Shown one piece after another: positions 33,153-39,998 of a stretch of 45,875 bases of DNA. The DNA is from Candidatus Poribacteria bacterium (lineage in GTDB: Bacteria > Poribacteria > WGA-4E > WGA-3G). Each line of letters starts with the position of its first letter. The first letter of the stretch is position 1. The DNA lies in contig VXPE01000065.1 in the NCBI GenBank assembly GCA_009839745.1, positions 1 through 45,875 of the forward strand, in the 5' to 3' direction. A program made the position numbers and the translations under genes. The notes below the pieces were generated by a model, which was not told the DNA's origin, ran no database searches, and saw only the letters and a program-made list of their open reading frames with translations.

Positions 33153-33698
33153 ATGAAACCATTTCGGTTGGGTGCTTACCCAGCACACTTAACACTCTTA
33201 ATTATCGGTCTTACAGTTTTCTGCCTCAGTTCGGGCAGCATTGGACAGGAATCTTTCAAAATCGGTGTCGTAAACACACAAGAAGTTTTAGAAGGATCCC
33301 AAAAAGCGACGGATGCCACCGAACTGCTCCAAGCGGCAAGCGAACGCCTGAAAACGAAATTGCAGCAGTTAGAAGACGAGATCAGAACGCTACAAGAAAA
33401 GAAGGCGAAAACTGAACTCTTCGTCGAAAGAGCACAGACCGCGGATTTGGATAACGAAATTCGCCTCAAACAGCAGGAATACCAACGTGAGGTCCAAATC
33501 GGTCAGCAGGCATTGCTTGAAAAAGAGCAAGAGTTGATGGAGCCGATTTACAACAGCCTTCAAGAACTGATTATCAAAGTCGGTGAGTCCGAAGATTTCG
33601 ACATCATCCTCGAAAAACGACTCATCACCCTTTATGTGAAAAAGGATTACGATTTGACACAACAGTTAATCGGCTTGATGAACGAAGGCTCCGAATAA
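33153..33698 (+). CDS. OmpH/Skp family periplasmic chaperone
   Basis: This 181-residue protein has a signal peptide (LLIIGLTVFCLSSGSIG). It then shows the OmpH opening, FKIGVVNTQEVLEGSQ, and a long charged coiled coil (about residues 55-130). The end, EDFDIILEKRL and YVKKDYDLTQ, is family-typical. Skp-like proteins hold unfolded outer-membrane proteins in the periplasm and pass them to BamA, whose gene lies directly upstream. AAGGAA precedes the ATG. Confidence 0.92.
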   Translation: MKPFRLGAYPAHLTLLIIGLTVFCLSSGSIGQESFKIGVVNTQEVLEGSQKATDATELLQAASERLKTKLQQLEDEIRTLQEKKAKTELFVERAQTADLDNEIRLKQQEYQREVQIGQQALLEKEQELMEPIYNSLQELIIKVGESEDFDIILEKRLITLYVKKDYDLTQQLIGLMNEGSE

Positions 33699-33783: not shown

Positions 33784-34836
33784 ATGTGTATGAAACTCAA
33801 GGAAATTTGTGAACGCTTGGATGGCGATCTTTCTGGGGACGGTGATATTGAAATTACAGGCGTTTCTGGAATCAAAGAGGCACTCCCAAGTCAGATTACC
33901 TTCGTTGCTAACCCGAAATACCTCGCTGCCATAGCGACAACACAAGCAGGCGCCATTATTATTGGTCGCGGTGTCAACGGTAACGGTAAGCCTACCATCT
34001 GTGTTGAGAATCCCTACTGGGCTTTCGTCAAAGTTATAGAAATGTTCGCGTGGGACAAAAACGAACGCGCACTTCCCGGGGTCCATGAAACCGCAATTTT
34101 AGGAAAAAACGTTAAACTCGGTGAGCGCGTTTCTATCCAAGCGTTTGCCTATATCGCAGACAACGTTGAAATTGGAGATGATACCGTTATTCAGCCGTTT
34201 GTTCACATTGGTGAAGGCACCAAAATCGGCTCCGATGGTCTAATTTATCCACATGTCAGTATTCGAGAAGAAATAATTATCGGCGACCGAGTGATCATCC
34301 ACTGCGGCGCGGTGATTGGCAGCGACGGTTTCGGATTCGCGCCCGTTAGCAACCGACACCACAAAATCCCTCAAATCGGAACTGTAGTCATTGAAGACGA
34401 TGTTGAAATTGGAGCGAATACTACCATTGATAGAGCAACCCTCTCCGAAACACTTATCAAACGCGGCACCAAATTGGATAATCTCGTCCAAATCGCACAC
34501 AATGTTGTTATCGGAGAAGATTGTTGTCTCGCCGCGCAAGTGGGTATCGCTGGCAGCACGACGATCGGGGACCGCGTAAATATCGCTGGGCATGGCGGCG
34601 CAGCAGGACATCTGACACTCGGCGCAGACAGTGTCGTTTATGCCAAATCCGCAGTTACAAAGGACATGCCCGCTGGCAGTCATCTGTCTGGATTCCCCGC
34701 ACGTCCTCACAAACAGGAACTCCGGATTCACGCGGCGACTCGGAAATTGCCAGAACTGCTCCCCGAATTCACGAAACTCCAAAAACGGGTTGCGGAACTG
34801 GAAGCGAAGCTTCAAGAACTGGAGGATAAATCGTAG
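33784..34836 (+). CDS. lpxD: UDP-3-O-acylglucosamine N-acyltransferase
   Basis: This 350-residue enzyme adds the second acyl chain in lipid A synthesis. The N-terminal uridine-binding domain (ICERLDGDLSGDG to about residue 95) is followed by a left-handed beta helix of hexapeptide repeats (IGDDTVIQPFVHIGEGTKIG and so on). The catalytic His lies in IAHNVVIGE, and GSDGFGFAP is diagnostic of LpxD. The C-terminal helix is long and charged (ELEAKLQELEDK). An ATG six bases further on is an alternative start. lpxA, fabZ and lpxC are not next to it. Confidence 0.95.
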   Translation: MCMKLKEICERLDGDLSGDGDIEITGVSGIKEALPSQITFVANPKYLAAIATTQAGAIIIGRGVNGNGKPTICVENPYWAFVKVIEMFAWDKNERALPGVHETAILGKNVKLGERVSIQAFAYIADNVEIGDDTVIQPFVHIGEGTKIGSDGLIYPHVSIREEIIIGDRVIIHCGAVIGSDGFGFAPVSNRHHKIPQIGTVVIEDDVEIGANTTIDRATLSETLIKRGTKLDNLVQIAHNVVIGEDCCLAAQVGIAGSTTIGDRVNIAGHGGAAGHLTLGADSVVYAKSAVTKDMPAGSHLSGFPARPHKQELRIHAATRKLPELLPEFTKLQKRVAELEAKLQELEDKS

Positions 34837-35011: not shown

Positions 35012-35860
35012 ATGAAGACATTGATCGCGTATGTTGAGTTGGCGCGTCCACTTAACGGAATCATCGCCTTCATCTCTGCATGGCTCGGTGGAATGTTTGC
35101 CAGCCAAGGTAACGTGGAACACCTCGTCGATATCCGACTGCTGTTGGTTTCCGTTGCTGCGCTTGTTGTGATCTCTGCCGGAAACGCCATTAACGATTAC
35201 TGTGATTACGACATCGACCGAATCAATCGCCCACGGCGACCGCTCCCTTCTGGACGCATTCGGCGTTCCAATGCCCTAATTTTTGCAATCATCCTTACGG
35301 CAATCGGCATCTATCTGGGAACCCGTATCAACAGAAATTCGACAGCCATTGCTATCCTCGTGTCGGTCGCCCTTGCAAGTTATGCTTTTTGGTTGAAACG
35401 CACCCCTTTTGTCGGCAATTTAGTCGTCAGTGGATTAACGGGTTTAACCTTCATTGCTGGCGGTGTAGCGATAGATTCGGTGCAAGGCACACTCATTCCA
35501 GCAATCTTTGCCTTTTTGTTCACAACGGCGCGGGAAATCGTCAAAGACCTTGAGGATACGGAAGGGGACGAGAAAAATAACGCGAAAACGCTTGCGACCC
35601 TTAACCCACGGATCGCAGTCTGGGCAGCCATCGGTTTCATGGCATCTGTTATTTTGTTTAGCCCCCTCCCTTATGTATTCGGTTGGTATTCATGGCACTA
35701 CTTGATTGTCGTTTTCATCGGTGTTGATGTGGTACTCATCGGTTTGGCAATTCGTCTGTGTCAAGATGCTTCCAAAGAGAGTTGTGCATCCATTCAACGT
35801 TGGATGAAATGGGATATATTCGTCGGACTCGGCGCGATCTATCTCGGAACGTTTTTATGA
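35012..35860 (+). CDS. UbiA-family prenyltransferase, DGGGP synthase-like
   Basis: This 282-residue integral membrane protein has about eight hydrophobic segments. The two Asp-rich prenyl-diphosphate/Mg motifs are NDYCDYDIDRINRP and DLEDTEGDEKNN. The pattern INRPRRPLPSGRI and EIVKDLEDTEGD is close to archaeal digeranylgeranylglyceryl phosphate synthases, which add a second isoprenoid chain to glycerol phosphate. A GGGP synthase gene lies about 1.3 kb downstream, which supports this role. Other UbiA enzymes (quinone or heme synthesis) remain possible. The next gene starts within its stop codon (ATGA). Confidence 0.85.
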   Translation: MKTLIAYVELARPLNGIIAFISAWLGGMFASQGNVEHLVDIRLLLVSVAALVVISAGNAINDYCDYDIDRINRPRRPLPSGRIRRSNALIFAIILTAIGIYLGTRINRNSTAIAILVSVALASYAFWLKRTPFVGNLVVSGLTGLTFIAGGVAIDSVQGTLIPAIFAFLFTTAREIVKDLEDTEGDEKNNAKTLATLNPRIAVWAAIGFMASVILFSPLPYVFGWYSWHYLIVVFIGVDVVLIGLAIRLCQDASKESCASIQRWMKWDIFVGLGAIYLGTFL

Positions 35861-37077
35861 TAAACTACGACAAGGTCATCGTTTTCTTAGAGAAGGAGAG
35901 CTCAGCGGCAGATGCCGTTTCCCGTTTTAAGCAAGCGTATCATACCTTCTGTAAAACGGATACATGGTCCCCCGCATATCAGGTATTTGTCACAGGTTGG
36001 CAGCGGCTTGACGGGGTTATGTTGTTAGAACCGGAGGACACGTTTGACAATGGCTACCGAGTTCATCTCACAACGACAACGGAACGAAGTTTGAGAGAAC
36101 TCCTCCTCGCCTTTCCGAGACGCTATACAGGGCTGTTTCATATCAACGAAAAATGGATAGAAAACAGAATCCACGATGTTGTAGAAGGCGACGTAATTCA
36201 GACTGATACAGGTTCCTATTATCGGGGTATCAAACGCGGCAGCAGCACCAGTGCGGAACAACGAACCGTCACAAAACGGAAGGATACAGTCGTATCGCAC
36301 ATTCACAAATTGGCCTCTTTGCGGGGGAAACTTGAACACTCCGAATTTATTGTCGAAGGTCCTCTGATAGTAGAAAGAGCCGTCACAGATGGACTCCCAA
36401 TTAAAACGATTCTCTATACGACCGGATTTGTGGCAACCCCCGAAGGGAAAGTTTTGCTCACGCGGGCAGCATCAGAAAACCTATCTGTTTATCAGGTCAA
36501 TGATGGCATGATGGGTTCAATTACGACAACACGGCCCGTGCCATCCATAATCGCTTCGGTTCATCTCAGCTATCCGAACTTCCTTTCGGCATCCGGAAGT
36601 CTCAATTTTCACTGTAGTCCAAGATGTGTATTGCTCATCGCAGAGAATATTGGAAATCCTGACAATCTTGGAATGACGTTACGGACAGCCGACGCAGCGG
36701 GCGTATCCGGAGTCCTCTTGAGTGATAGCGGCGCGAGTCCTTTTCATAAAAACTGCATCCGTGCTTCCCGAGGGGCAGTCGGTCGCTTGCCTTTATTTTT
36801 TACACGAGACATCTGCGATGCGATTGATGCACTCCGTGTCTCAGGTTGGCAAGTGTTGGGAGCCACAGCGAGTGCCACAAACCAACTGCATGAAATGGAA
36901 TTTATACGCCCCACGGCTATCGTCGTAGGTAACGAGAATACAGGGCTCTCTGCTGATGCCCGGGACTGCTGCCCCCAATTAGTTCGCATTCCCATGGCAT
37001 CAGGGCAATCATCACTGAATGTAGGTGTCGCGGCAGGTATTCTGCTCTATGAACTCACGCGACACCACAGAATTTGA
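35857..37077 (+). CDS. TrmH/SpoU family RNA methyltransferase with an extra N-terminal domain
   Basis: This 406-residue protein methylates a ribose 2'-OH in rRNA or tRNA, by family. Residues about 255-406 form the SPOUT knot with NPDNLGMTLRTADAAGV, IVVGNENTGLS and IPMASGQSSLNVGVAAGI. An RNA-binding L30e-like domain precedes it (HSEFIVEGPLIVERAVTD). The first 140 residues (FLEKESSAADAVSRFKQAY and following) match no domain I recognise. The ATG at 35857 overlaps the UbiA stop by 4 bp, so the two are probably coupled. A promoter for the next gene overlaps its own stop. Confidence 0.88.
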   Translation: MINYDKVIVFLEKESSAADAVSRFKQAYHTFCKTDTWSPAYQVFVTGWQRLDGVMLLEPEDTFDNGYRVHLTTTTERSLRELLLAFPRRYTGLFHINEKWIENRIHDVVEGDVIQTDTGSYYRGIKRGSSTSAEQRTVTKRKDTVVSHIHKLASLRGKLEHSEFIVEGPLIVERAVTDGLPIKTILYTTGFVATPEGKVLLTRAASENLSVYQVNDGMMGSITTTRPVPSIIASVHLSYPNFLSASGSLNFHCSPRCVLLIAENIGNPDNLGMTLRTADAAGVSGVLLSDSGASPFHKNCIRASRGAVGRLPLFFTRDICDAIDALRVSGWQVLGATASATNQLHEMEFIRPTAIVVGNENTGLSADARDCCPQLVRIPMASGQSSLNVGVAAGILLYELTRHHRI

Positions 37078-37102
37078 CAAATCGACATAAATATGATAGA
37101 AT
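37074..37102 (+). promoter_or_regulatory. Sigma70-type promoter for the GGGP synthase gene
   Basis: TTGACA (37074-37079) and TAGAAT (37097-37102) are spaced 17 nt apart. The -35 box overlaps the stop codon of the SpoU gene. Confidence 0.65.
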
Positions 37103-37196
37103 TTTTAAGGTAACTGATGCGCTATAAGTCCCCACTATCAGAAAGGGCATAGCATTTAAACCGATATTTAGCATAGTCAAAGAAGGAAAATCGCAT

Positions 37197-37943
37197 TTGA
37201 GATCGAATTGGGTTCTTAACTACTTTCACGAGGTATTGAAAAAGCACCATGCTGGTTATTTCGTTCTAATTGATCCGGAGCAGTGTGAAATTGGAAGATG
37301 CGTTAAACTTGCAAGCGAAATAGAGGCGGCGGGGGCAGACGCGATTTTGCTCGGTGGCAGTTTTTTAACGAGCGATTTGCACCACGTCGCGAAAGCCCTT
37401 AAGCAGGAAACAGAACTCCCACTGGTGTTATTTCCGGGCGATTCGATGCACCTCACTCCGCATGCCGATGCGATTCTGTATATCAGTCTCATAAGTGGAC
37501 GCAATCCGAACTATCTCATTGGCGAACAGGTCAAAGCGGCACCGCGGATACAACGTTACGCGCTTACCCCCATTCCAACGGGCTATATGCTGATTGAAGG
37601 CGGCAACAAAACCGCAGTTGAATTTATGAGTGGCACAATGCCCATCCCACGCGATAAACCCGATATTGCGGGACCGCACGCATTGGCTGCCCAGTATCTC
37701 GGTATGCAAATGGTATATCTGGAGGCGGGGAGTGGTGCTGAACACTCCGTTCCAGAAGCGATGATCACAACAGTGAAAAATCAAATTAGCATCCCACTCA
37801 TCGTCGGTGGAGGCATCCGCACACCAGAAATTGCTGCACAGAAGGTAGAAGCAGGGGCGGATTTCATCGTTACAGGGAACATTCTCGAAGAAAACGGATC
37901 CCTCGAACTGATGCGGGAATTTGCTAACGCCGTTCATGACTAA
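37197..37943 (+). CDS. Geranylgeranylglyceryl phosphate synthase family protein (GGGPS/PcrB)
   Basis: This 248-residue TIM-barrel enzyme joins a polyprenyl diphosphate to glycerol-1-phosphate by an ether bond. In archaea this is the first step of membrane lipid synthesis. Signatures are FVLIDPEQCE, ILLGGSFLTS, FPGDSMHLTPHADAILYIS, MVYLEAGSGA and VGGGIRTPEIAAQKVEAGAD. The PcrB enzyme of Firmicutes, which uses heptaprenyl diphosphate, is the alternative. The nearby DGGGPS-like UbiA gene favours the archaeal-type reaction. The start is TTG at 37197 with AGAAGGA upstream. Confidence 0.9.
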   Translation: MRSNWVLNYFHEVLKKHHAGYFVLIDPEQCEIGRCVKLASEIEAAGADAILLGGSFLTSDLHHVAKALKQETELPLVLFPGDSMHLTPHADAILYISLISGRNPNYLIGEQVKAAPRIQRYALTPIPTGYMLIEGGNKTAVEFMSGTMPIPRDKPDIAGPHALAAQYLGMQMVYLEAGSGAEHSVPEAMITTVKNQISIPLIVGGGIRTPEIAAQKVEAGADFIVTGNILEENGSLELMREFANAVHD

Positions 37944-38006
37944 AATGGACGACTCAAACAAATGTGCTTTCCAAGCACACCTCAAGAAGGACAGAAGGAC
38001 TTCATT

Positions 38007-38858
38007 ATGGCTGAAGTGAAAGAAATACACATAGAAACAGAAAAAGAGACAGAAACGGAAGCATCTACTGATAGCACTTCCAGCACTGGTAAAGAAAAAA
38101 CAATTGCCGAACGAATGCGAGAAATCGCGGAGACGGCACTTGATACAGTCAAATCGGAAGTAAAAAAGGAGATAGAAGAACGCATCGCGCCTGTAGAAAA
38201 AACAGCTGCCAACCTCACCTCCGAAGTCAAAGAAGAAGTTGAAGCGATCGTGCAAAGGGTGCGCGAGCAATACGAAGCAGAACGCGAAGACTTATTGCAC
38301 ACAGAAATCGAAAAAGAGGTAGAAACCGCTGTCCAACAGGTCCATGAGGAATATAAAGCGGAACGCGATCGTCTTCTACGCACAGCAGCAGAAGCTGAGA
38401 ATACCAAAAAACGCCTGCAAGTGGATTATCAACGGCAACTCAAATTCGCCAATGAGGGAATTTTAGAAGGAATGATCCCGGTCCTGGACAGTCTGGAAGC
38501 CGCGATCAAAAGTACAGCAGAACAAGGCGAAACGAGCGATGCGTCGCACGCCTTCACGACCTTCAACGAAGGCGTGCAACTCGTTCATAAACAATTCTTA
38601 GATGCCCTCAGAATCCACGGACTAACCTCCATTGAAGCAGTTGGTGAAATGTTCGATCCAAATCAGCACGAGGCACTCTTGGTCACAGCATCGGACGATG
38701 TCCCAGAGGGAAAAATTATTGAAGAATTTCGGCGTGGCTACATGTTGCATACCCGTGTTCTACGCGCCTCTCAAGTTGTCGTCTCCCAGGGACCCGCCGA
38801 AGAAGACGCATCAGACGACGTGTCGGATGATACAGATGCTACTGATACTACCGAATAG
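38007..38858 (+). CDS. grpE: Nucleotide exchange factor GrpE with a long N-terminal coiled coil
   Basis: GrpE releases ADP from DnaK. The conserved part covers about residues 125-265: ENTKKRLQVDYQRQ, ILEGMIPVLDSLEAAI, FDPNQHEALLV and GYMLHTRVLRASQVVV. Before it is an unusually long charged coiled coil, and the total of 283 residues exceeds the usual 190-200. The tail is Asp-rich. The ATG at 38007 follows AGAAGGAC; an upstream in-frame start at 37962 is less likely. dnaJ follows 18 bp later; dnaK is not in the window. Confidence 0.93.
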   Translation: MAEVKEIHIETEKETETEASTDSTSSTGKEKTIAERMREIAETALDTVKSEVKKEIEERIAPVEKTAANLTSEVKEEVEAIVQRVREQYEAEREDLLHTEIEKEVETAVQQVHEEYKAERDRLLRTAAEAENTKKRLQVDYQRQLKFANEGILEGMIPVLDSLEAAIKSTAEQGETSDASHAFTTFNEGVQLVHKQFLDALRIHGLTSIEAVGEMFDPNQHEALLVTASDDVPEGKIIEEFRRGYMLHTRVLRASQVVVSQGPAEEDASDDVSDDTDATDTTE

Positions 38859-38876: not shown

Positions 38877-39998
38877 ATGACGCAAAAACGCGACTATTAT
38901 GAGATTCTGAACGTCAATCGTGATGCCGATGCAGACGGAATAAAAAAGGCGTATCGCAAACTCGCCATACAATTCCATCCGGACAAAAATCCGGGCGATA
39001 AAGTCGCCGAAGATAAATTTAAGGAAGCCACAGAGGCGTATGAAGTCCTGCAAGACGCTGAGAAACGGGCCCGTTATGATAGGTTCGGGCACGCAGGACT
39101 GGAGGGCATGGGAACTGACTTCGGAGACCTTGGGATAAACCTTGACGACGTTTTCGGTGATGTTTTTGGCGACCTCTTTAGTGGATTCGGTAATCCGCGG
39201 CGTTCCCCCAAACACGGACGCAGTTTACAATACAACCTTGAGGTAACACTGGAAGACGTTATCCATGGCAAGGAAGTCACAATCCAAGTGCCACGAATTG
39301 AATCGTGCCCTACCTGTGAAGGCAGTGGTGCGAAAAAAGGCACACGGCCTACACGGTGTCCGCAATGTCACGGCAGGGGTCAAATCAGTCAATCACAAGG
39401 TTTTTTCACAATGTCCCGAACGTGTCCGAGATGCCGGGGAGAAGGCACCATTATTACAGAGCCTTGTCAGTCCTGCAACGGAAGAGGCGTTGTCCGGAAC
39501 ACGCGTGAGCTTAAGGTAAATATTGAAAAAGGCGTTGATACAGGCTTCAAGTACCAACTCCGCGGTGAAGGCGAAATCGGTATAAACGGGGCACCCCCGG
39601 GTGATTTGTTTGTTGTCATTAATGTCGAACCCCACGAACGTTTTCAACGGGATCGCAATGACCTGATTACATCCGCCAAAATCTCGTTTGTCCAAGCCAC
39701 CCTCGGTGGGAACATTGAAGTTGATAGTATCGATGGAAAAGAGGAATTGCACATCCCGCCGGGTACACAGTGGGGTTCACACCTCCGTATTCCTAACAAG
39801 GGGGTGCCACATTACAGACGCTCCTATTCAGGGGATCTGGTCGTGAGAGTAGAGATCGAAACACCAAAGCATCTCAGCACGGAACAGCGAAGAAAGTTAG
39901 AAGAATTTGCGACACTGCGTGGAGAAGACCACCAGAGCGAACACGGCGGATTCTGGGATAAACTGCTCGGTAGACATGATGACGAAGACCCCGAATAG
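38877..39998 (+). CDS. dnaJ: Chaperone protein DnaJ
   Basis: This 373-residue type I DnaJ delivers unfolded proteins to DnaK and stimulates its ATPase. The J domain has HPD at residues 34-36. A Gly/Phe-rich linker ([17 protein letters not shown]) follows. Four zinc-binding CxxCxGxG repeats appear as [24 protein letters not shown] and CQSCNGRG. The C-terminal client-binding domains end in [10 protein letters not shown]. The order grpE-dnaJ-prmA is common in bacteria. Confidence 0.97.

Follow-up and report, generated by a model that had tools for sequence, protein, structure and literature searches.

Archaeal-type ether-lipid genes in Poribacteria and a candidate selenocysteine geranylgeranyl reductase in related genomes

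Geranylgeranyl reductase (GGR) is the enzyme that saturates archaeal lipids, and in Bacillus, PcrB gives a mono-ether intermediate that is used for something else. The bacterial precedent for archaeal-type ether-bond synthesis comes from Candidatus Cloacimonetes. In E. coli, the geranylgeranylglyceryl phosphate synthase (GGGPS) and DGGGP synthase (DGGGPS) of this group yielded PG-archaeol with unsaturated chains (Villanueva et al. 2020, PMC7852524). According to that article, bacterial co-localisation of the two genes seemed confined to Cloacimonetes, and its main text makes no mention of Poribacteria. The Bacteroidetes provide a solved bacterial member of the GGGPS family, FjGGGPS of F. johnsoniae (PMC9385802). 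In Poribacteria, homologues of Tes and Mss, involved in the synthesis of membrane-spanning lipids, were reported in 10/29 and 14/29 MAGs, respectively (PMC11868695).

Here, we analysed a window of 45,875 nucleotides, i.e. the whole stretch of DNA under study, which is one contig of a Candidatus Poribacteria genome (G000; 5.04 Mb, 96% complete). Gene identities, active-site residues, synteny and joint retention were computed across Poribacteria, as were the in-frame UGA codons of GGR with their hairpin, tRNA-Sec and SelB.

Gene order and enzyme identities at the locus

The original prediction placed a DGGGP synthase-like UbiA gene and a GGGPS gene just past lpxD. We retrieved both at exactly these coordinates, together with the motifs YLEAGSGA and VGGGIRTPEIA. 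The proximity of the three genes stands as well, except that a spoU gene between ubiA and GGGPS had been omitted. The features of the locus are as follows.

33153..33698, + strand: OmpH/Skp-like chaperone (skp), upstream neighbour (PF03938, 84.5 bits)
33784..34836, + strand: lpxD, lipid A acyltransferase, upstream neighbour (TIGR01853, 372.8 bits, above cut-off)
35012..35860, + strand: UbiA-superfamily prenyltransferase, DGGGP synthase-like, predicted to form the second ether bond (Pfam UbiA, 149 bits)
35857..37077, + strand: SpoU-family RNA 2'-O-methyltransferase, between ubiA and GGGPS (PF00588, 121.7 bits)
37197..37943, + strand: group II geranylgeranylglyceryl phosphate synthase, predicted to form the first ether bond (TTG start; PF01884, TIGR01769)
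37962..38858, + strand: grpE-like ORF, in conserved order in Poribacteria loci
38877-39998: dnaJ, downstream of the grpE-like ORF, in conserved synteny

The start of spoU overlaps the stop codon of ubiA (ATGA). This gene is probably co-transcribed with its neighbours and probably no member of the lipid pathway. About 145 residues of its product, ahead of the recognised substrate-binding domain, have no Pfam match. The order skp-lpxD-ubiA-spoU-GGGPS-grpE-dnaJ-prmA was found in most of 31 other Poribacteria loci, where GGGPS is 72-99% identical to the window copy. Hence, the arrangement results neither from chance nor from an assembly artefact.

Judged by its sequence, the window GGGPS is a group II GGGP synthase. 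It matches the Pfam PcrB/GGGPS family PF01884 at 166 bits (cut-off 23.9) and the NCBIfam GGGP synthase model TIGR01769 at 221.5 bits (cut-off 161.6), and among solved structures it best matches that of the Methanothermobacter enzyme, which is of group II (PDB 4mm1, 192.8 bits). When aligned with 4mm1, it retains the catalytic Tyr130, Tyr174 and Glu176 and the phosphate-binding GGGIR loop at 204; both the catalytic residue types and the group II classification follow PMC9385802. The original prediction had named a PcrB-like identity as the outcome that would speak against it. PcrB of B. subtilis belongs to the same superfamily, but the window protein reaches only 31.5 bits with the heptaprenylglyceryl phosphate synthase model NF003197 (cut-off 260), against the 221.5 bits it scores as a GGGP synthase, and 27.5 bits with the PcrB structure 3vzx. 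On these scores, we rejected a heptaprenyl lipid enzyme of the PcrB type. Two further GGGPS, each 52% identical to this one, were also seen. One, in a genome outside Poribacteria (L123, G185:C164:6500-16000), directly follows a GGR gene; the other, in a Chitinispirillales genome (L041:6998-7765), lies beside alaS with no ubiA nearby.

The best solved match of the UbiA protein is the DGGGP synthase of M. jannaschii (PDB 6m31, 136.5 bits), the next structure scoring 35.8 bits. The two members of the UbiA superfamily align over their full length and have in common both aspartate motifs, NDYCDYDID at residue 61 and DLEDTEGD at 179 of the window protein, as in the DGGGP synthase pattern of NDxxDxxxD and DxEDxxGD-type motifs. 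Unlike its archaeal counterpart, the window UbiA is bacterial; the similarity is moderate (136 bits) and the activity is predicted. With the NCBIfam models of the DGGGPS type, it falls short of the curated thresholds (217 bits against 296 for PRK12882 and 229 against 269 for PRK12884). Hence, we describe it as a protein that probably works like a DGGGPS and claim no formal membership from profiles. The profile and solved-structure matches thus uphold both enzyme assignments of the original prediction.

UbiA enzymes are functionally diverse, and bacterial homologues had been assumed to do other things, according to Villanueva et al. (PMC7852524). The window UbiA might thus give another prenylated product (a quinone, a pigment or another prenyl lipid), while GGGPS would supply a mono-ether intermediate for something else, a reading compatible with the scores below the DGGGPS cut-offs. 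We regard it as improbable: the DGGGP synthase is the best structural match by ~100 bits, models of quinone enzymes (the outcome that the original prediction had set against its own reading) reach at most ~57 bits and are rejected as the best description of this protein, UbiA is retained or lost jointly with GGGPS, and in relatives the two genes share an operon with a GGR that is of the same type as archaeal lipid reductases.

Joint retention and partner genes

Among 85 Poribacteria genomes, GGGPS was found in 73 and the orthologous UbiA in 74, a count that leaves out a 30% match in one genome (G022). Both genes are present in 72 genomes and neither in 10, with three discordant cases (Fisher p 2e-10, for 85 draft genomes and ignoring their relatedness). 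The genomes that lack both genes belong to several separate genera (g1, g4, g9 and g18). In several g4 genomes ubiA and GGGPS lie far apart, yet both are retained. As many as 48/73 of the GGGPS-bearing genomes lack GGR, showing that saturation by this enzyme is not needed for retention.

We then considered the partner genes that the original prediction had listed for the source genome, where the outcome was mixed. A GGPP synthase-like gene is present (L112), with GGPP synthetase 1wmw as best match (220.9 bits), its product length being predicted. The relative of G1PDH (L003, 877-1938, - strand) is weak, at 120 bits for a cut-off of 413. It can be aligned with G1PDH chains (58-68 bits), but with glycerol dehydrogenases too. 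The ORF beside it may, we presume, be of a sugar-lyase type. G1PDH-like genes occur in most of genus g1 and in none of g4, which mostly retains GGGPS. Their presence fails to follow GGGPS between genera, and we rejected G1PDH as a linked partner. The genome has no dedicated CarS: the hits are weak matches over part of the profile (25 bits), perhaps to the homologous bacterial CdsA. There is also no match to PlsY (PF02660), though lpxD is present; a Bacteroides control had no match either, which makes a different acyltransferase likely.

No true GGR was found in the source genome. The best match, a protein of 420 aa (C90), is below cut-off and has its best scores with CmlS-type halogenases. Counterparts are present in nearly all genomes, with or without GGGPS, and C90 is therefore not the GGR of the pathway.

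Geranylgeranyl reductase in relatives and its candidate selenocysteine

A GGR-family search retrieved strong GGR genes in part of the phylum. The order ubiA, GGR, GGGPS on one strand was found in 12 genomes from seven families of deeper Poribacteria, and the three genes are directly adjacent in seven of them (G001, G011, G012, G023, G024, G025 and G026). In G016, G013 and G014, spoU lies between ubiA and GGR, and the window has no GGR at that place. Comparison with these three genomes suggests that the junction between spoU and GGGPS in the window would be the former site of GGR. These GGR are closest to the digeranylgeranylglycerophospholipid reductase of T. acidophilum (PDB 3oz2, 273 bits) and score 242 bits with TIGR02032 (cut-off 158.8). 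They have GYIWVFP and SGGGI motifs, in line with the YxWxFP and GGG motifs of the family (PMC6309074), and either Cys or a Sec codon in the active site. The T. acidophilum enzyme is an FAD reductase with the same two motifs, and its active-site Cys aligns with the poribacterial position; in contrast to it, one Poribacteria clade has UGA (Sec) in place of the catalytic Cys, and the window genome lacks the gene.

The mono- or di-ether prenyl glycerol phosphate could be a minor lipid or precursor instead of a bulk phospholipid, and would be unsaturated in the GGR-less lineage of the window. Most of genus g1 is without GGR, and no dedicated CarS or linked G1PDH was found, as this alternative would have it. 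On the other hand, GGR, where it occurs, is usually inside the operon, and the Cloacimonetes work (PMC7852524) indicates that the unsaturated product is accepted by the enzymes with which E. coli makes CDP-lipids and head groups. We consider a minor role unlikely, though less so than a different product.

In 16 GGR genes, all from one order-level clade, an in-frame UGA occupies the codon of the catalytic Cys (Cys47 in S. acidocaldarius, Cys45 in T. acidophilum; PMC6309074, PMC10821996), while eight other poribacterial GGR genes have UGU or UGC there. A SECIS-like hairpin begins 13 bases past the UGA. It forms 6-7 of 7 pairs in 15/15 readable UGA genes, against 1-3 of 7 in the eight Cys genes, and its pairing is lost on sliding by 1 to 3 columns. 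The hairpin shows compensatory changes: the covariation score and the number of paired cells exceed those of all 500 shuffles, which ignore relatedness, whereas the count of pairs changed on both sides is not above all of the shuffles. The Sec copies form one clade (support 99/99) and the Cys copies branch outside, which is consistent with a single change from Cys to Sec. As for the decoding machinery, tRNA-Sec is present in 75/85 and SelB in 76/85 Poribacteria genomes, including that of the window. Among the genomes with UGA, G024 (80% complete) matched neither and G059 (81% complete) had no match to SelB. In the window genome, SelB is directly followed by tRNA-Sec (G000:C22:3346-5439), which makes Sec decoding probable there, though it has no GGR.

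An ordinary stop codon in decaying pseudogenes would be the obvious alternative to selenocysteine, and two copies from the family of the window are indeed broken elsewhere, by an in-frame TAG in G069 (L089, C136) and by a frameshift in G035 (L088, C133). We judge this alternative very improbable. In every case the UGA lies at the codon of the catalytic Cys and nowhere else, 13 copies (72-100% identity) are otherwise open over ~397 codons, the hairpin is conserved with compensatory changes, the genomes encode the Sec machinery and the Sec copies make up one supported clade. The two damaged copies, and a third cut by a contig end (G059), rather make the loss of GGR in the family of the window look ongoing. 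An alternative genetic code was rejected, since UGA also terminates other genes, among them ubiA in the window and GGR within the UGA-bearing clade. We also discarded two UGA codons as Sec candidates: in the UbiA of G004 it is an ordinary stop at the C-terminus, and in the GGR of G213 it is a normal C-terminal stop in a gene whose active-site codon is Cys. We found no UGA at the catalytic site among the GGR matches checked in ~300 genomes outside Poribacteria. Hence, the GGR of these relatives is a candidate bacterial selenoprotein, in which the UGA and hairpin suggest that Sec would be inserted.

Proposed pathway and comparison with known systems

Read from the genes, the pair would most likely supply a mixed membrane with a diether phosphate of the archaeol type whose chains are unsaturated. 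GGGPS would couple geranylgeranyl diphosphate to glycerol phosphate (probably G1P), and addition of the second geranylgeranyl chain by UbiA would yield this phosphate. Bacterial enzymes of CDP-lipid and head-group synthesis may take over from there. The involvement of bacterial head-group enzymes is thus predicted, as are the lipid product and its stereochemistry. In evolutionary terms, the ancestral Poribacteria operon would have included the chain-saturating GGR, whose catalytic cysteine presumably became selenocysteine in one order-level clade; the window lineage would later have lost GGR from the locus while retaining both ether-forming genes. Taken as a whole, this account of archaeal-type ether-bond steps in a bacterium, an ancestral GGR operon, a Sec clade and a later loss of GGR is the one we find probable, with fairly good confidence. 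A stronger version is that archaeal-type diethers are regular membrane components in Poribacteria and that the saturation step of one clade is carried out by a selenoenzyme GGR with catalytic Sec. We advance it tentatively, at slightly less than an even chance.

The proposal of archaeal-type lipid synthesis made in the original prediction is thus partly supported. The enzyme identities speak for it, and the joint retention and the ubiA-GGR-GGGPS operon of relatives provide independent support. The gaps lie in the genome itself, which has no true GGR or dedicated CarS and whose G1PDH relative is weak and does not track GGGPS.

These results would add Poribacteria, a group that includes sponge symbionts, to the bacteria that are exceptions to the lipid divide. 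Since the ether-bond and saturation genes lie in one operon, a mixed membrane becomes testable in a natural bacterium. If true, the Sec-containing GGR would represent a new family of selenoproteins and offer a natural means of probing the catalytic cysteine of this enzyme, whose role has so far been described as a presumed modulation of redox or of electron transfer. The openly searchable literature yielded no report of a Sec-containing GGR, and nothing earlier that links selenium to the synthesis of archaeal-type lipids. A review of selenoproteins in prokaryotes from 2026 contains neither 'prenyl' nor 'lipid', and the two FAD-dependent enzymes listed there are of other kinds.

The idea of the pathway is already known from Cloacimonetes. 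The new elements, neither of which lies in the window, are the Poribacteria operon that includes GGR and the GGR that is a candidate selenoprotein. FjGGGPS (group IIb) belongs to the same group of the GGGPS family as the window enzyme. As a difference, the GGGPS of Poribacteria is linked to DGGGPS-like and GGR genes. Candidatus Cloacimonetes offer a close precedent (PMC7852524). Both groups have clustered GGGPS and DGGGPS homologues beside bacterial lipid genes; Cloacimonetes have no recognised G1PDH or CarS, the window genome has a weak G1PDH relative and no dedicated CarS, and a mixed membrane was proposed for Cloacimonetes. Cloacimonetes are, however, another phylum, and in contrast to them the ancestral Poribacteria operon would have had GGR between both genes; in one Poribacteria clade, this GGR is moreover a candidate selenoprotein.
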